A DNA stretch of 64,000 nucleotides from Corynebacterium sp. P4-C1 (GTDB lineage Bacteria; Actinomycetota; Actinomycetes; Mycobacteriales; Mycobacteriaceae), in assembly GCF_030503595.1 (NCBI RefSeq), contig NZ_CP129966.1, forward strand, positions 2,232,001 through 2,296,000. The letters are read 5' to 3'. The notes under the pieces were generated by a model that saw only the letters and a program-made list of their open reading frames with translations, searched no databases and had not been told where the DNA came from. Both the position numbers and the translations under genes were made by a program. Of this stretch, positions 42,771 to 47,878 are shown piece by piece; position 1 is the stretch's first letter, and every line of letters begins with the position of its first letter.

Positions 42771-44036
42771 ATGACGTACCAGTATGATTCGGCGGATCTC
42801 GCCCGCCGCGTGGTGGAGGGGGAGAAGGGCTCCCAACTCACCCGCATGCAGGAGCACCGCGATGCTTTCGCCCGCGACCGCGCCCGCGTGCTGCACTCGG
42901 CGGCGCTGCGTCGCCTAGCGGACAAAACCCAGGTTGTCGGGCCGCGCGACGGAGACACCCCGCGCACCCGCCTGACGCACTCGCTGGAAGTCGCCCAAAT
43001 TTCCCGCAGTATCGGCATGGGACTGGGACTCAATCCCGACCTATGCGAAATGGCCGGCCTCACCCACGACATCGGGCACCCGCCGTACGGGCACAACGGG
43101 GAGGTGGCGCTCGACGAGCTCGCCGCCGGCTGCGGCGGCTTCGAAGGCAACGCCCAGACCCTGCGCATTCTGTCCCGCCTCGAGCCGAAAGTCCTGGACG
43201 GCGGGCAGTCCTTCGGCCTCAACCTCACCCGGGCGGCACTCGACGCCGCGTGCAAATACCCGCGCACACGCACCAACCCGGACGGGACGATCAGCCGGAA
43301 ATACGGGGCCTACGACGAAGACGCCGAGGTTCTGGCGTGGCTCCGTGAGGGGCACACGGACGATCTGCCGCCGATGGAAGCGCAGGTGATGGACTGCTCC
43401 GACGACATCGCCTACAGCGTCCATGACGTGGAGGACGGAATCGTCTCCGGCCGCGTCGACCTCAAGGTGCTGTGGGACCTCGTCGAGCTGGCCGCGCTCG
43501 CAGCTAAAGGGGCGGCGGCGTTCGGGGGAACGGCAGACGAGCTTATCGACGCCGCCGCCCGCCTCCGCTCCCTCCCCATCGTCTGCGCCGCCGCGGATTT
43601 CGACTTCTCGCTCACCGGCTACGTCACCTTGAAGAAGATGACCTCCGAGCTGGTCGGACGCTACGTTGCCGCCGTTATCACCGCGACGAAGGAGGCCAAT
43701 CCGTTCCCCGTCGGACGCATGCACGGCGAACTGGTCGTCCCGCCGGAGGCGGAGGCAGAAGTACGGCTACTCAAGACTGTGGCTGTGCTCTACGTCATGG
43801 ACATGCCATCCCATATCGCGCGGCAGGACCGGCAGCGCAGCCGCATCGTGCGCGTCTACGACTACCTGAATGCCGGCGCTCCCGGAGCTTTGGACACCAT
43901 GTTCGCCGCCTGGTGGCACGAAGCCGACTCGGAAGCAGCCCGCCAGCGCGTGATCATCGATCAGATTGCCTCCATGACCGAGTCCCGCCTCGAGCGCACG
44001 GCGAAAAAGACCGCTTCCTTGGACGGGTACCTCTAG
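42771..44036 (+). CDS. dgt: deoxyguanosinetriphosphate triphosphohydrolase-like protein
   Basis: 421 residues. HD-domain metal ligands: RLTHSLEVAQ near 66-75, LTHDIGHPPYGHNGE near 97-111, CSDDIAYSVHDVEDG near 210. Hydrolyses dGTP or other dNTPs to nucleoside and tripolyphosphate, trimming dNTP pools. A TAGGCT box at 42755-42760 ends 10 bases before the ATG, so the mRNA may have almost no leader. Divergent from the TPM gene; in related genomes dgt is near dnaG, as here. Confidence 0.93.
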   Translation: MTYQYDSADLARRVVEGEKGSQLTRMQEHRDAFARDRARVLHSAALRRLADKTQVVGPRDGDTPRTRLTHSLEVAQISRSIGMGLGLNPDLCEMAGLTHDIGHPPYGHNGEVALDELAAGCGGFEGNAQTLRILSRLEPKVLDGGQSFGLNLTRAALDAACKYPRTRTNPDGTISRKYGAYDEDAEVLAWLREGHTDDLPPMEAQVMDCSDDIAYSVHDVEDGIVSGRVDLKVLWDLVELAALAAKGAAAFGGTADELIDAAARLRSLPIVCAAADFDFSLTGYVTLKKMTSELVGRYVAAVITATKEANPFPVGRMHGELVVPPEAEAEVRLLKTVAVLYVMDMPSHIARQDRQRSRIVRVYDYLNAGAPGALDTMFAAWWHEADSEAARQRVIIDQIASMTESRLERTAKKTASLDGYL

Positions 44037-44037
44037 G

Positions 44038-44988
44038 TCAGAATGAAAGGTCCCGGCGACGTAGCCGCCGTGCCCCGAGCACCTCACCTACGAACCCCTC
44101 CGGGTCGGCCTCGATTTCCCGGGTAGTGAAGTGGAGCTTGCGGTATCCGCGCGCCGCAGCCCACCGGTCGCGCTTCCGCAGGTTCCGGGCAAGCATCCGC
44201 CCGTGCGGTTCTTCTTCGAGCTCACGGAACAGTGGGTCCTCGTCGACCGCGATGACTAAGTCATTGCCGGCTAGGAGAACGGCGTGCCCCATTTCATCGA
44301 GTTCGCAGTTGATGCGGACCCGGACAGGGGAGTCGAGAAGAAGCGAATACGCGAGCAGGTACCGGTAGGACTTCAGCTCCTTGGCGGTGTGCGGAAGCGA
44401 CGCGGCCATCCGCTTCCGGTTCGGGTGAAGCGGCCCTTCGAAATCCCGTGCATAAGCAGAAATCCCCTCCGCCGTCAGTCCGCGCTCGAGCAACCAGCCC
44501 GCCGCGAGCCACGCATTCGAATTCTGCCGCAGCCGGCACATATCCAGGTACGTCCGCAGCGGATCCGTCACGCGCACGCCGTCGAGCTCCTCGATTTCCT
44601 CCTCCCGGAGCTTCATGGACTTGAACCGCACACCATGGGGCAGCATGCTTTTCGACGGCTGGTACCCCGACGGCAGTGCAAACAACACCGAGTGGTCCTT
44701 CGGCGGGATGAACCACATGCCCCATTGCGCGGCCGCCCAGGGGCCGACTAACACCGCCTTCCGCGATTCCTGCGAGGCTGCGGCTCCCCGCACCACCAAC
44801 TGGCGTCTCAGGCCGAGGCTGCGGAACCACTCGGCCGCGACTGCGCTGGTCGGCGAGATCTGGCGGAGATTAGGGGGAAGGTTCCCTGTACCCTTTCGTG
44901 AAACCTGAATCCGTTCGCGGATAAACCTCTGGCGAATCTCCCGAACGTCCTGTTTAGCAAAGCTTTCCCAATCCCGACCCCCAGCCAT
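44038..44988 (-). CDS. AbiEi-antitoxin / DUF559-nuclease-like protein
   Basis: 316 residues, ATG at 44988 with AGGAGA upstream. N-terminal RFIRERIQVSRKGTGNL resembles the winged-helix start of AbiEi-type proteins. The middle VRVTDPLRTYLDMCRL is typical of AbiEi (DUF4433-like) family members. The C-terminal third follows the DUF559/Vsr-like nuclease layout: an acidic strand (DLVIAVDEDPLF), R-x-L-x-R-N-L-R-K-R-D-R-W and a final HFTTREIEADPEGFV. No partner toxin (AbiEii nucleotidyltransferase) is adjacent. Convergent with dgt, stop 1 base away. Function uncertain. Confidence 0.6.
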   Translation of the reverse strand: MAGGRDWESFAKQDVREIRQRFIRERIQVSRKGTGNLPPNLRQISPTSAVAAEWFRSLGLRRQLVVRGAAASQESRKAVLVGPWAAAQWGMWFIPPKDHSVLFALPSGYQPSKSMLPHGVRFKSMKLREEEIEELDGVRVTDPLRTYLDMCRLRQNSNAWLAAGWLLERGLTAEGISAYARDFEGPLHPNRKRMAASLPHTAKELKSYRYLLAYSLLLDSPVRVRINCELDEMGHAVLLAGNDLVIAVDEDPLFRELEEEPHGRMLARNLRKRDRWAAARGYRKLHFTTREIEADPEGFVGEVLGARRLRRRDLSF

Positions 44989-45043
44989 GTCTCCTGTTTA
45001 CCCCGGATGAATTCAGGATTCTCTCCAAAACCCGATAAAAGGA

Positions 45044-45075
45044 CCGATATTGCGCACTGAAATGCGCAATATCGG
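45044..45075 (-). terminator. strong intrinsic terminator of the RNase-barstar operon
   Basis: Perfect 13-bp stem CCGATATTGCGCA / TGCGCAATATCGG with a 6-base loop CTGAAA. In the minus direction it is followed by TCCTTTTATC; the plus side has CCCGTTTTC, so it may work both ways. It lies about 110 bases past the barstar stop. Confidence 0.85.
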
Positions 45076-45184
45076 CCCGTTTTCACCTTCTGGAATCAGG
45101 TTTTAGGCAACGGTGCTGATGCACTACCCAGGGTGCTCTGTTTCTCAGAGAGCGGAAAGGGGAAGGACAGCGGGCAGGTGCGCT

Positions 45185-45505
45185 CTACATGTGTGTCAGT
45201 GCCACGCCTTCGCAGGTGAACACGTGTAGAAGTTGGTCGCCGAGATCCCTGGGTACGCGCCAATCCGTGACGATGACTCGATCCACCCGCGTTTCGCGCA
45301 GAAGGTCGGCGAGGGCATCGAGGTTACGCGGCACCGGACGGGTCGGGGTGTTCTCCTCCACTTCTCGGGAGTCGTAGACGGCGTCGATGATCGCGGTTCC
45401 GAGGTCCTCGACTGAGTGGATGGGCCGAGTGACGCACACAGTGTTCGCAGTGTTCGCAGAGGTCGCGGTGTTCTCGGTGTTCTCGGTGTTCGCGGGAGTG
45501 CTCAT
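45185..45505 (-). CDS. barstar-family ribonuclease inhibitor
   Basis: 106 residues, ATG at 45505 sharing a base with the TAA of the RNase gene. After an Asn/Thr-rich N-terminal repeat (residues 6-22), the barstar layout appears: IHSVEDLGTAIIDAV near 29-43, then NLDALADLLRE at 61-71 and VIVTDWRVPRDLGDQLLHVF at about 77-96. In barstar the equivalent stretch NLDALWDCL holds Asp35 and Asp39 that plug the RNase active site; here these are Asp63 and Asp67. It should neutralise the linked ribonuclease in the cytoplasm. Confidence 0.82.
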   Translation of the reverse strand: MSTPANTENTENTATSANTANTVCVTRPIHSVEDLGTAIIDAVYDSREVEENTPTRPVPRNLDALADLLRETRVDRVIVTDWRVPRDLGDQLLHVFTCEGVALTHM

Positions 45506-45936
45506 TACTTGACATCCATTTCGCAGAACGACTCGTAGTGGTCGTCTGTGTAGTAGTACACGTCCGGGTCGGTCTCGGTGCCTCCGCCGGTGACGATGCG
45601 GCGTTCCCCGCGGTGCTTCAGGCCCGGGGTGGGAACGGTGTACTCCCGGTAGTAGTCGGAGTCCTCCTCCGGGAGAACGCGCTCGTAATTGCCGAAGTGG
45701 GCACCATCGTTCTGGGGGTAGGTGAAGGGGCCGTTGGAGTGGATGTCGTCGATAAGCTCTGTTGCTTCTTGCGGAACCGACGTGCACGCGCTGATGCCGT
45801 CCGTTGCTTGCGGGGCGCTGGCGGTCTCCGGATCGTGCAGGATGGTGTAGACGATTGACACCAAAGTGATGAGCCCGACGATGAGAATCAAAGGCAGAGC
45901 CACCGAATGGCTCGAACTGTCTCCTTCAGTAGACAT
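45505..45936 (-). CDS. membrane-anchored guanyl-specific ribonuclease, RNase Sa/barnase (N1/T1) family
   Basis: 143 residues. One hydrophobic segment at 13-33 (signal anchor or signal peptide), then an RNase Sa-like domain from about 50: ATELIDDI and NGPFTYPQND, then YYREYTVPTPG with catalytic Glu98, HRGERRIVTGGG with Arg109 and Arg112/113, and DDHYESF with catalytic His133. Cys51 and Cys138 sit where RNase Sa has its disulfide. All residues known to be needed in the family are present. Predicted to act outside the membrane; the barstar-like gene downstream protects the producer. Gene is divergent from dnaG. Confidence 0.88.
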   Translation of the reverse strand: MSTEGDSSSHSVALPLILIVGLITLVSIVYTILHDPETASAPQATDGISACTSVPQEATELIDDIHSNGPFTYPQNDGAHFGNYERVLPEEDSDYYREYTVPTPGLKHRGERRIVTGGGTETDPDVYYYTDDHYESFCEMDVK

Positions 45937-45963
45937 GCGTTCATTTTAAACACACGCGCGCGG

Positions 45964-45969
45964 TAGGAT
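45964..45969 (+). promoter_or_regulatory. -10 box for leaderless dnaG mRNA
   Basis: TAGGAT ends 7 bases before the dnaG ATG at 45977, so transcription should begin at the start codon. No ribosome site precedes this ATG. No good -35 seen. Confidence 0.45.
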
Positions 45970-45976
45970 GTGCGCC

Positions 45977-47878
45977 ATGGCTAGGGGCAGAATTCCGGAT
46001 AGTGATATCGAGGCTATTCGCGAGCGCGCCAACATCGCCGACATTGTGGGGGAGTACGTCCAGCTCAAACCCGCCGGGCACGACTCGCTGAAGGGGCTGT
46101 CCCCGTTCAAGGACGAGAAGACGCCGTCCTTCCACGTGCGCCCCGCGCGCGGCTATTACCACTGCTTTTCCACGGGAAAAGGCGGCGACGTCTTCTCCTT
46201 CATGATGGAGATGGAGCAGCTCAGCTTCCCCGAGGCCGTCGAAGCGGTGGCCGAGGAGATCGGCTACCACATTAATTACCAGGGCGGATCCACGGGCGCG
46301 CGCGACGTCAAACCCGGTACCCGCGCGCGACTGCTCGCCGCGAATAAGGCCGCGCACGAGTTTTACCGCGACAAGCTCGAGCAGCCGGAAGCCGAAGTGG
46401 GGCGTCGTTTTCTGCTCGACCGCGGCTTCGATAAGGAGATCATCCACCACTTCGAATGCGGGTACGCGCCCGACGGGTGGGACACAATGACAAAGCACTT
46501 GCTCCGCAAGGGCTTCGATGTCCAGGAGCTTATCGATGCCGGTTTGTCCACGATGGGGCGCCGCGGGCCCATCGACAAGTTCCGTCGCCGTCTCCTGTGG
46601 CCCATCAAGGACGTGGCCGGCAACGTCATCGGTTTCGGTGCCCGCAAGCTTTTCGATGACGACACCATGGGCAAGTACATGAACACCTCGGACACGATGC
46701 TGTACCACAAGTCAAAGGTGCTGTTCGGCCTGGATCTGGCCAAGAAGAATATCGCCCAGGGCCACCAGTGCGTCGTGGTGGAGGGTTACACGGACGTGAT
46801 GGCCATGCACGCCGCCGGTGTGACCACCGCGGTGGCATCGTGCGGCACCGCCTTCGGCAAGGACCACATGAGCATCATCCGCCGCCTGATGCTGGACGAC
46901 AATTACTTCCGCGGCGAGTTGATCTACACCTTCGACGGCGACGAGGCTGGGCAGAAAGCCGCCATGCGTGCTTTCGAGGGCGACCAGCAGTTCACCGGCC
47001 AGTCCTTTGTTTCCGTCGCTCCCGACGGCATGGACCCCTGCGACCTGCGTATGGCCAAGGGCGATTCCGCCGTGCGCGACCTTGTGGCCTCCCGGGTTCC
47101 CATGTTCGAGTTCGTCATCGAATCTCTGCTCCAGGATTACTCCCTGGACACCCCCGAGGGCCGCCTGCAGGCTTTGCGCCGCACCGTTCCCGTCGTCGCC
47201 CAGATCCGCGACACCCCGCTGCAGACCGAGTACGCCCGCCAGCTCGCCGGTTGGGTCGGCTGGCCTGATCCGAGCGAGGTGATCCGGCAGGTCCGTAAGG
47301 AGGCCAAGAACCCCAAGCTGGTCAAACGGACCGTCTGGGAGGGCACTTCCACCACGGCGAACCAGCCCGCTCCTAACCAGCCCGCCTTCGAGCTGCCCAA
47401 CCCCGACGACCCGATGCTGTGGGCCCAGCGGGAGGCGCTCAAGGTGGCCCTTCAATATCCGGAGGCTGCCGGCAGCTACTTCGACGGCATCAACCCCGAC
47501 GCGTTCACCCACCCCGCCTACCGCGCTGTCCGCGACGCCATGGGCAGAGCTGGCGGCACGTCGAATTCCGCCGCAATCGGGGCCGGCACCTGGATCTCCC
47601 ACGTCGCCGACGAGATGCTCGATCCCACCGGCCGCACTTTCGTGTCCGAGCTCGCCGTCGAGGAGATCCTCGCCGAGGACCCCGCCTCCTACGCTGACTC
47701 TGTCCTTTCCCGCCTGCAGGAAGTCCGCGTGGGCAACCAGATCGCCCAGCTGAAGTCTCAGCTGCAGCGTATGCGCCCCAGCGACGACGAGATGGCCTAC
47801 AACGCTTTGTTCTCCGACCTGGTCGCTCTCGAGCAGGCGCGGCGGGAGCTCAATGACCGGGCGTTCAGGGGCAACTGA
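45977..47878 (+). CDS. dnaG: DNA primase DnaG with degenerate zinc motif
   Basis: 633 residues from the ATG at 45977. Starts RIPDSDIEAIRERANI; the catalytic TOPRIM core has VVEGYTDVMAMH near 265 and the metal site FDGDEAG near 320; the C-terminal helicase-binding domain follows. The zinc-binding pattern C-x2-H-x17-C-x2-C is replaced by Ser42-x2-Lys45-x17-Cys63-x2-Thr66 (SPFKDEKTPS...YYHCFSTG): three of four ligands are gone although the surrounding sequence is normal. It synthesises RNA primers at the replication fork. Confidence 0.95.
   Translation: MARGRIPDSDIEAIRERANIADIVGEYVQLKPAGHDSLKGLSPFKDEKTPSFHVRPARGYYHCFSTGKGGDVFSFMMEMEQLSFPEAVEAVAEEIGYHINYQGGSTGARDVKPGTRARLLAANKAAHEFYRDKLEQPEAEVGRRFLLDRGFDKEIIHHFECGYAPDGWDTMTKHLLRKGFDVQELIDAGLSTMGRRGPIDKFRRRLLWPIKDVAGNVIGFGARKLFDDDTMGKYMNTSDTMLYHKSKVLFGLDLAKKNIAQGHQCVVVEGYTDVMAMHAAGVTTAVASCGTAFGKDHMSIIRRLMLDDNYFRGELIYTFDGDEAGQKAAMRAFEGDQQFTGQSFVSVAPDGMDPCDLRMAKGDSAVRDLVASRVPMFEFVIESLLQDYSLDTPEGRLQALRRTVPVVAQIRDTPLQTEYARQLAGWVGWPDPSEVIRQVRKEAKNPKLVKRTVWEGTSTTANQPAPNQPAFELPNPDDPMLWAQREALKVALQYPEAAGSYFDGINPDAFTHPAYRAVRDAMGRAGGTSNSAAIGAGTWISHVADEMLDPTGRTFVSELAVEEILAEDPASYADSVLSRLQEVRVGNQIAQLKSQLQRMRPSDDEMAYNALFSDLVALEQARRELNDRAFRGN

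Follow-up and report, generated by a model that had tools for sequence, protein, structure and literature searches.

What might a bacterium do with a ribonuclease (RNase) that appears to be held at its own membrane, and why would the gene of a putative inhibitor follow so closely behind? The question is raised by a pair of genes in Corynebacterium sp. P4-C1. All coordinates given here are positions in a 64,000-nt stretch of contig NZ_CP129966.1 (the window), which belongs to a 2.31 Mb one-contig genome; the features are collected in Table 1. A first-pass annotation, made from the sequence of the window, described the pair as an RNase Sa-like toxin with a barstar-like inhibitor. Our analysis makes it fairly probable that the pair consists of a core membrane-tethered guanyl RNase for extracytoplasmic RNA and a cytoplasmic, diverged barstar that would dock onto and block enzyme folding too early.

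The RNase and its putative inhibitor

The survey covered 201 Corynebacterium genomes, from which 192 RNase loci were fetched, 148 in a discovery set (stretches of 3.3-5.3 kb) and 44 later. In the discovery set 155 loci were loaded and 148 counted, with L032-L038, which came from a search with PF01337, excluded as six repeats and one locus without the RNase. RNase places outside the fetched set are those of G078 and G126 (where the contig ends) and the second one in G169. Loci with the inhibitor gene behind the RNase are called paired and the others orphan.

In a profile search, the window RNase matches PF00545 with E=2.3e-22 (79.8 bits; curated cut-off 24). A PDB sequence search places it nearest, among solved structures, to RNase Sa chains (E about 1e-20), and its predicted structure matches RNase Sa, Sa2 and Sa3 with target template modelling (TM) scores of 0.79-0.85 among the matches listed (best 30). 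The residues Glu98, Arg109, Arg113, His133, Cys51 and Cys138 are invariant in a 43-row alignment (A4), in line with the complete active site and the probable disulfide described at first pass. Column 51 is Cys in 148/148 discovery RNases; in a re-alignment, the orphan L135 has Ala there. The domain is conserved, with a median identity of 67% among the 100 paired discovery loci. Judged by its sequence, the window enzyme is of the RNase Sa type, with the catalytic Glu, two Arg and His all present, and guanyl activity is predicted. It shares the fold, the catalytic residues and the cysteine pair with RNase Sa, Sa2 and Sa3 of Streptomyces (37-45% identity in the structural matches). Unlike in those enzymes, the Corynebacterium domain is preceded by a membrane helix or lipobox, and, compared with RNase Sa, a loop is longer by one residue, Asn76. 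In several genomes of family f14, PF00545 matches twice in succession on one strand, once strongly and once weakly (G318:C87:47039-47605 and similar places), perhaps representing a two-domain RNase.

The first base of the inhibitor's open reading frame is also the final one of the RNase stop (TAATG), so that the two genes share position 45505, the one-base overlap reported before. The identity of its product is less obvious. PF01337 gave no match in the window inhibitor at E 1, nor anywhere in the whole P4-C1 genome, and no barstar was retrieved when the protein was compared with Pfam, NCBIfam and PDB. These results weigh against a barstar, and since the family models give no barstar match, the assignment needed profile comparison. 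The profile-profile comparison of the inhibitor family with barstar gave Prob 91.9 over 67 columns, the controls reaching at most 2.3. Searched against PDB, the family profile (A2) ranked barstar first, at an E of only 0.25. There are other data consistent with this assignment. First, PF01337 at E 1 matches 21 of 66 relatives of the inhibitor (best E 1.6e-4), and sub-threshold PF01337 matches occupy the inhibitor slot within Corynebacterium. Second, a neighbour of an RNase gene in Mycolicibacterium wolinskyi (L288), whose RNase has Asn76, is matched by the Corynebacterium profile as well as by that of canonical barstar. Third, in other genera of the order a canonical barstar is found within 500 nt behind the RNase in at least 53 of 84 places. 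Finally, the predicted structure of the inhibitor suggests the beta-alpha-alpha-beta-alpha-beta topology of barstar, an agreement that is weak taken alone. A homologue carrying PF01337 (P0112) resembles a joined contig (739 bases) and was excluded as evidence.

The NLDALAD motif aligns with the NLDAL of barstar. Its Asn61, Asp63 and Asp67 are conserved in at least 90% of 66 partner proteins; Asp63 is found in 97/100 and Asp67 in 96/100 discovery partners. The window protein has both, as first described, in what we take from the profile alignments to be the place of barstar Asp35 and Asp39. Alternatively, the small protein could be an unrelated helper of the RNase, such as a chaperone or secretion partner, with a convergent NLDALAD. 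This is very improbable given that the profile comparison far exceeds its controls, that L288 bridges the two profiles, and that the same slot is held by canonical barstars outside the genus and by sub-threshold PF01337 matches inside it. By profile comparison, bridging sequences, position and, more weakly, predicted structure, the 106-aa protein is thus to be regarded as a very diverged barstar; the inhibitor of the first-pass annotation stands on these grounds, while the Pfam barstar model misses it. Like the barnase-barstar pair of Bacillus (PF01337), the Corynebacterium pair combines a predicted guanyl RNase with a small putative inhibitor that has NLDAL, two aspartates and, in the predicted model, an apparent barstar topology. 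Unlike canonical barstar, the window inhibitor escapes detection by Pfam and has no FPxWFG or FPxYFG stretch before NLDAL; unlike in Bacillus, the two genes overlap and the enzyme appears to be tethered.

Distribution and probable loss of the inhibitor

The RNase was found in 194 of the 201 genomes, with two matches each in G059, G169 and G078 (in pieces in the last). The control genome, that of C. glutamicum, is likewise positive for PF00545. In contrast, the inhibitor was found in only 104, with one match each, and in none of the seven genomes without the RNase. In 103 of these 104 genomes a check confirmed that it lies directly behind the RNase, and the remaining one, G078, is consistent by coordinates. 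In that genome, which is 77% complete, an RNase in two pieces lies ahead of a stop-free inhibitor match (G078:C1:1799585-1799847). The 192 loci split into 103 paired and 89 orphan ones (100 and 48 in the discovery set). In 56 orphan loci (33 discovery, 23 later) dgt lies within 120 nt of the RNase stop, leaving no room for an inhibitor gene there. In 18 others (10 and 8) dgt is further away and in 15 (5 and 10) there is no dgt in the stretch examined; a very diverged inhibitor could be hidden in those 33 loci.

The RNase locus usually sits between dgt and dnaG: dnaG is present in 133 of 148 discovery loci (94 paired, 39 orphan) and dgt in 110. In 30 outgroup RNase loci neither gene turned up within 1.5 kb, which sets Corynebacterium apart from genera of the same order with canonical RNase-barstar neighbours, although in both the inhibitor follows the RNase. 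The DNA of the pair matched no phage record, the pair had no match in PHROGs, and relatives of the RNase on 16 plasmid records are all below 60% identical. The idea of a portable unit is thus not supported, given the near-universal RNase and its conserved neighbours, and the same counts speak against a mobile toxin-antitoxin unit, the inhibitor alone being patchy. One genome, G059, carries two dnaG-RNase loci (L099 and L110) about 29 kb apart on the same contig, one paired and one orphan; the orphan locus clusters with other species on the DnaG tree.

On a FastTree phylogeny of DnaG plus Dgt for the 192 loci, inhibitor presence requires 17 changes, at least 9 of them forced by supported branches. 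A second tree, from a short IQ-TREE search, requires 14 changes, and a smaller DnaG tree of 115 loci requires 6, at least 4 of them forced. Most of these changes are likely losses, a direction that rests on the same slot being held by canonical barstars outside the genus.

One residue of the RNase follows the inhibitor through these changes. Residue 76 is Asn in 95 of 103 paired and in 7 of 89 orphan loci. In the discovery set the numbers are 92/100 (the rest 4 Lys and 4 His) versus 5/48. The prediction was fixed before the 44 further loci were fetched; Asn76 was then found in 3/3 paired and 2/41 orphan loci, the later orphans being related by descent to earlier ones and the paired loci numbering three. 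In G059, the paired RNase has Asn76 and the orphan RNase Thr76. Among 9 independent pairs on supported branches of the first tree, 7.1 agree with Asn76 following the inhibitor and 0.1 contradict it (sign test, median p 0.0156, range 0.0039-0.219), and Asn76 ranks first of 72 variable RNase columns (net 7.0; next 4.7; mean 0.68, standard deviation 1.73). T116 is a weak follower of the inhibitor, with 4.7 of 9 pairs on the first tree (median p 0.0625) and 1.7 of 6 on the second, and G68 and E98 were rejected as partner-following residues, too few independent pairs differing in them. By alignment, residue 76 falls in the loop before Asp33 of RNase Sa, presumably the rim of the active site that is touched by barstar. 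In the four paired discovery loci with Lys76, two of which are close relatives, the Asn61/Asp63/Asp67 motif of the inhibitor is altered in 4/4 versus 7/96 of the others. From these comparisons, Asn76 may be read as a residue that touches the inhibitor and is conserved on account of it.

Two observations weigh against this reading. On the IQ-TREE phylogeny only 6 pairs are left, of which 4.5 agree and 0.1 disagree with the link (median p 0.125), and of 30 outgroup loci 22 lack residue 76, while 5 have Asn there and 3 have Arg. Since the outgroup residue is untied from barstar, the link is confined at most to Corynebacterium and its altered barstar. There is a real possibility, although one short of even, that the link reflects shared ancestry together with faster evolution of orphan RNases, without any contact. 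The clustering of orphans on the tree, the non-significant test on the second tree and the independence of Asn76 from barstar outside the genus are consistent with it; the top rank of Asn76 among the variable columns, the result on the first tree and the persistence of the pattern in the later loci speak against it. Tentatively, and with a little less confidence than that, we suggest that the rim loop is held by the inhibitor rather than by catalysis: Asn76 would be kept with barstar and released at each loss, and orphans would then be free to change, one group replacing Glu98 by Ser, a change that might have made an RNA-binding protein of an envelope RNase.

Glu98 is retained in 48/48 discovery orphans and in 29/41 later ones, the other 12 having Ser (L228, L229, L231, L234, L243, L250, L252, L256, L257, L258, L263 and L265; 12/89 orphans in all). 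Ser98 requires two changes on the tree and occurs in 0/103 paired enzymes. As most orphans retain Glu98, most orphan enzymes look active without inhibitor. It is plausible that they are tolerated since the enzyme would fold properly only outside, where the disulfide forms.

Membrane anchor and predicted side

The anchor described at first pass is borne out by the predicted helix at residues 13-34, where the predicted local distance difference test (pLDDT) score is about 50-63. No Lys or Arg precedes this helix, a point against an enzyme facing outwards, and for this reason the side of the membrane has to be argued from relatives. A script sorted the RNase N-termini of the 148 discovery loci, the set that these classes cover, into 132 with a helix, 14 with a lipobox and 2 with neither. 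An eye check of the lipobox set found one false (L097) and four missed (L028, L055, L084, L086); by eye, there are 130 hydrophobic helices, 17 lipoboxes and 1 with neither (L144). Immediately behind the hydrophobic stretch, 8 of the 132 loci in the script's helix class have a strict AxA motif. The lipobox state needs at least 3 changes on the DnaG tree, and lipidation takes place outside the cytoplasm. The lipoboxes and the conserved cysteines together place the enzyme, by prediction, at the outer face of the inner membrane. Since some lineages swap the helix for a lipobox, tethering outside the membrane seems to be a maintained trait. In Corynebacterium this face lies beneath the mycomembrane, according to the available text of PMC7775120. 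The earlier location at the cell surface is therefore better read as the envelope, while the anchor and the extracytoplasmic side are supported by sequence and prediction.

This location bears on two other roles. The overlap of the genes and the AbiEi-like gene adjoining the pair would suit a cytoplasmic toxin-antitoxin or anti-phage module. Such a module is nevertheless highly unlikely: helix or lipobox and conserved cysteines indicate the outside, the position is conserved in the genus, and neither protein is matched by a PADLOC model up to E 1. Defence against phage or plasmid RNA, as proposed in the first-pass annotation, is likewise not supported, given the PADLOC result and the predicted side outside the membrane.

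An anchored RNase might also be shed or transferred to neighbours, with barstar protecting kin. The order of toxin followed by immunity gene, with a one-base overlap, is as expected for such a system, and simple barnase-barstar pairs might be an incipient form of this order, as suggested in the available part of PMC3482391. However, the family search found no delivery domain in the RNase, which is near-universal and conserved, and no immunity gene is seen behind the RNase in 89 of 192 loci, which makes interbacterial use unlikely. A polymorphic or contact-dependent toxin in particular is not supported, as the 143 aa comprise only helix and RNase, with no space for a delivery module, and the domain is conserved across the genus rather than polymorphic. 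Contact-dependent killing, one of the roles first considered, is thus not borne out. The Tox-Barnase/Imm-Barstar systems of PMC3482391, in its available text, share the toxin-then-immunity order; unlike them, the Corynebacterium pair has no delivery part, no polymorphism was seen, and the gene is near-universal.

Neighbouring genes and expression signals

Table 1. Features of the RNase-inhibitor locus in the window
Feature	Positions	Strand	Remarks
dgt-like gene, other conserved neighbour	42771-44036	+	tblastn in relatives; name presumed
AbiEi-like accessory gene, between the pair and dgt, outside the pair	44038-44988	-	PADLOC AbiEi, E=5.5e-5
Strong hairpin with T tail	45041-45078	-	begins 107 nt past the inhibitor stop; likely terminator before the next gene
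Diverged barstar-like inhibitor gene	45185-45505	-	106 aa from ATG; one-base overlap with the RNase stop
NLDALAD motif, residues 61-67 (Asn61, Asp63, Asp67)	45305-45325	-	aligned with barstar NLDAL
RNase Sa-type guanyl RNase gene (PF00545)	45505-45936	-	143 aa; stop codon included
RNase domain, residues 51-141, with Cys51, Glu98, Arg109, Arg113, His133, Cys138	45514-45786	-	family profile and alignments
Asn76 codon, residue tracking inhibitor presence across the genus	45709-45711	-	alignments, independent pairs
Membrane helix, RNase residues 13-34, signal anchor	45835-45900	-	prediction
TAAAAT, possible -10 element	45943-45948	-	6 nt ahead of the RNase ATG; read from sequence
dnaG, divergent neighbour	45968-47878	+	second possible ATG at 45977; tblastn finds it beside the RNase in relatives; name presumed

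The names dnaG and dgt are those that we take the two sequences to represent. The starts of dnaG and the RNase lie back to back, with 31-40 nt shared between them. TAAAAT is present in the four relatives examined (L112, L081, L104 and L110), and a sigma-70 promoter scan did not report it. Its spacing and conservation suggest that both starts may be leaderless.

Relatives of the AbiEi-like gene were found by tblastn in 13 of the other 147 RNase loci; their identity is 67-99% in L104, L110 and L112 and 26-38% elsewhere. The interval from the pair to dgt may thus be a place where accessory genes settle.

The hairpin downstream is as strong as had been claimed (-34.3 kcal/mol, z -6.9), but it lies 107 nt past the inhibitor stop. 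It is found with one change in L112 (same species) and as the core alone in L104 and L110; no hairpin was found in the 170 nt examined for L081. Its core, TTGCGCATTTCAGTGCGCAA, has six copies in the genome within 3 mismatches, this one included, and the reversed pattern has none. Among the 3-kb stretches around the six copies, only that of the present locus contains the AbiEi-like gene. The hairpin may be more than a terminator.

Proposed role

Given the overlap of the genes, a single transcript would yield the RNase and then the inhibitor through translational coupling. The N-terminal helix would export the RNase and hold it on the cell-wall side of the membrane. The inhibitor would remain in the cytoplasm, docking through its two aspartates into the active site of any RNase that folds before export and thereby capping it. 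The inhibitor is best read as an immunity protein, useful but dispensable. Outside, the enzyme would degrade RNA, most likely for nucleotide salvage or RNA clearance. Extracellular RNA use is the best of the three roles in the first-pass annotation; that the RNA is broken down for reuse is our guess.

Conclusions

In textbooks the barnase-barstar complex exemplifies tight protein binding. Descriptions already exist of simple barnase-barstar pairs that lack notable polymorphism (PMC3482391, available text). The literature searched, with most subscription papers outside it, gave no account of the Corynebacterium pair. What is new here is the predicted tethering of the enzyme, the diverged inhibitor, the genus-wide position, the repeated loss of the inhibitor and the residue that tracks this loss. 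The analysis provides a likely name for proteins that sources, if naming them, mostly call hypothetical. Moreover, a natural series exists within one genus, 103 pairs against 89 enzymes without inhibitor among the fetched loci, with a single residue that seemingly reports the presence of the inhibitor. This series makes the loss of the inhibitor, and whatever replaces its protection, directly testable.
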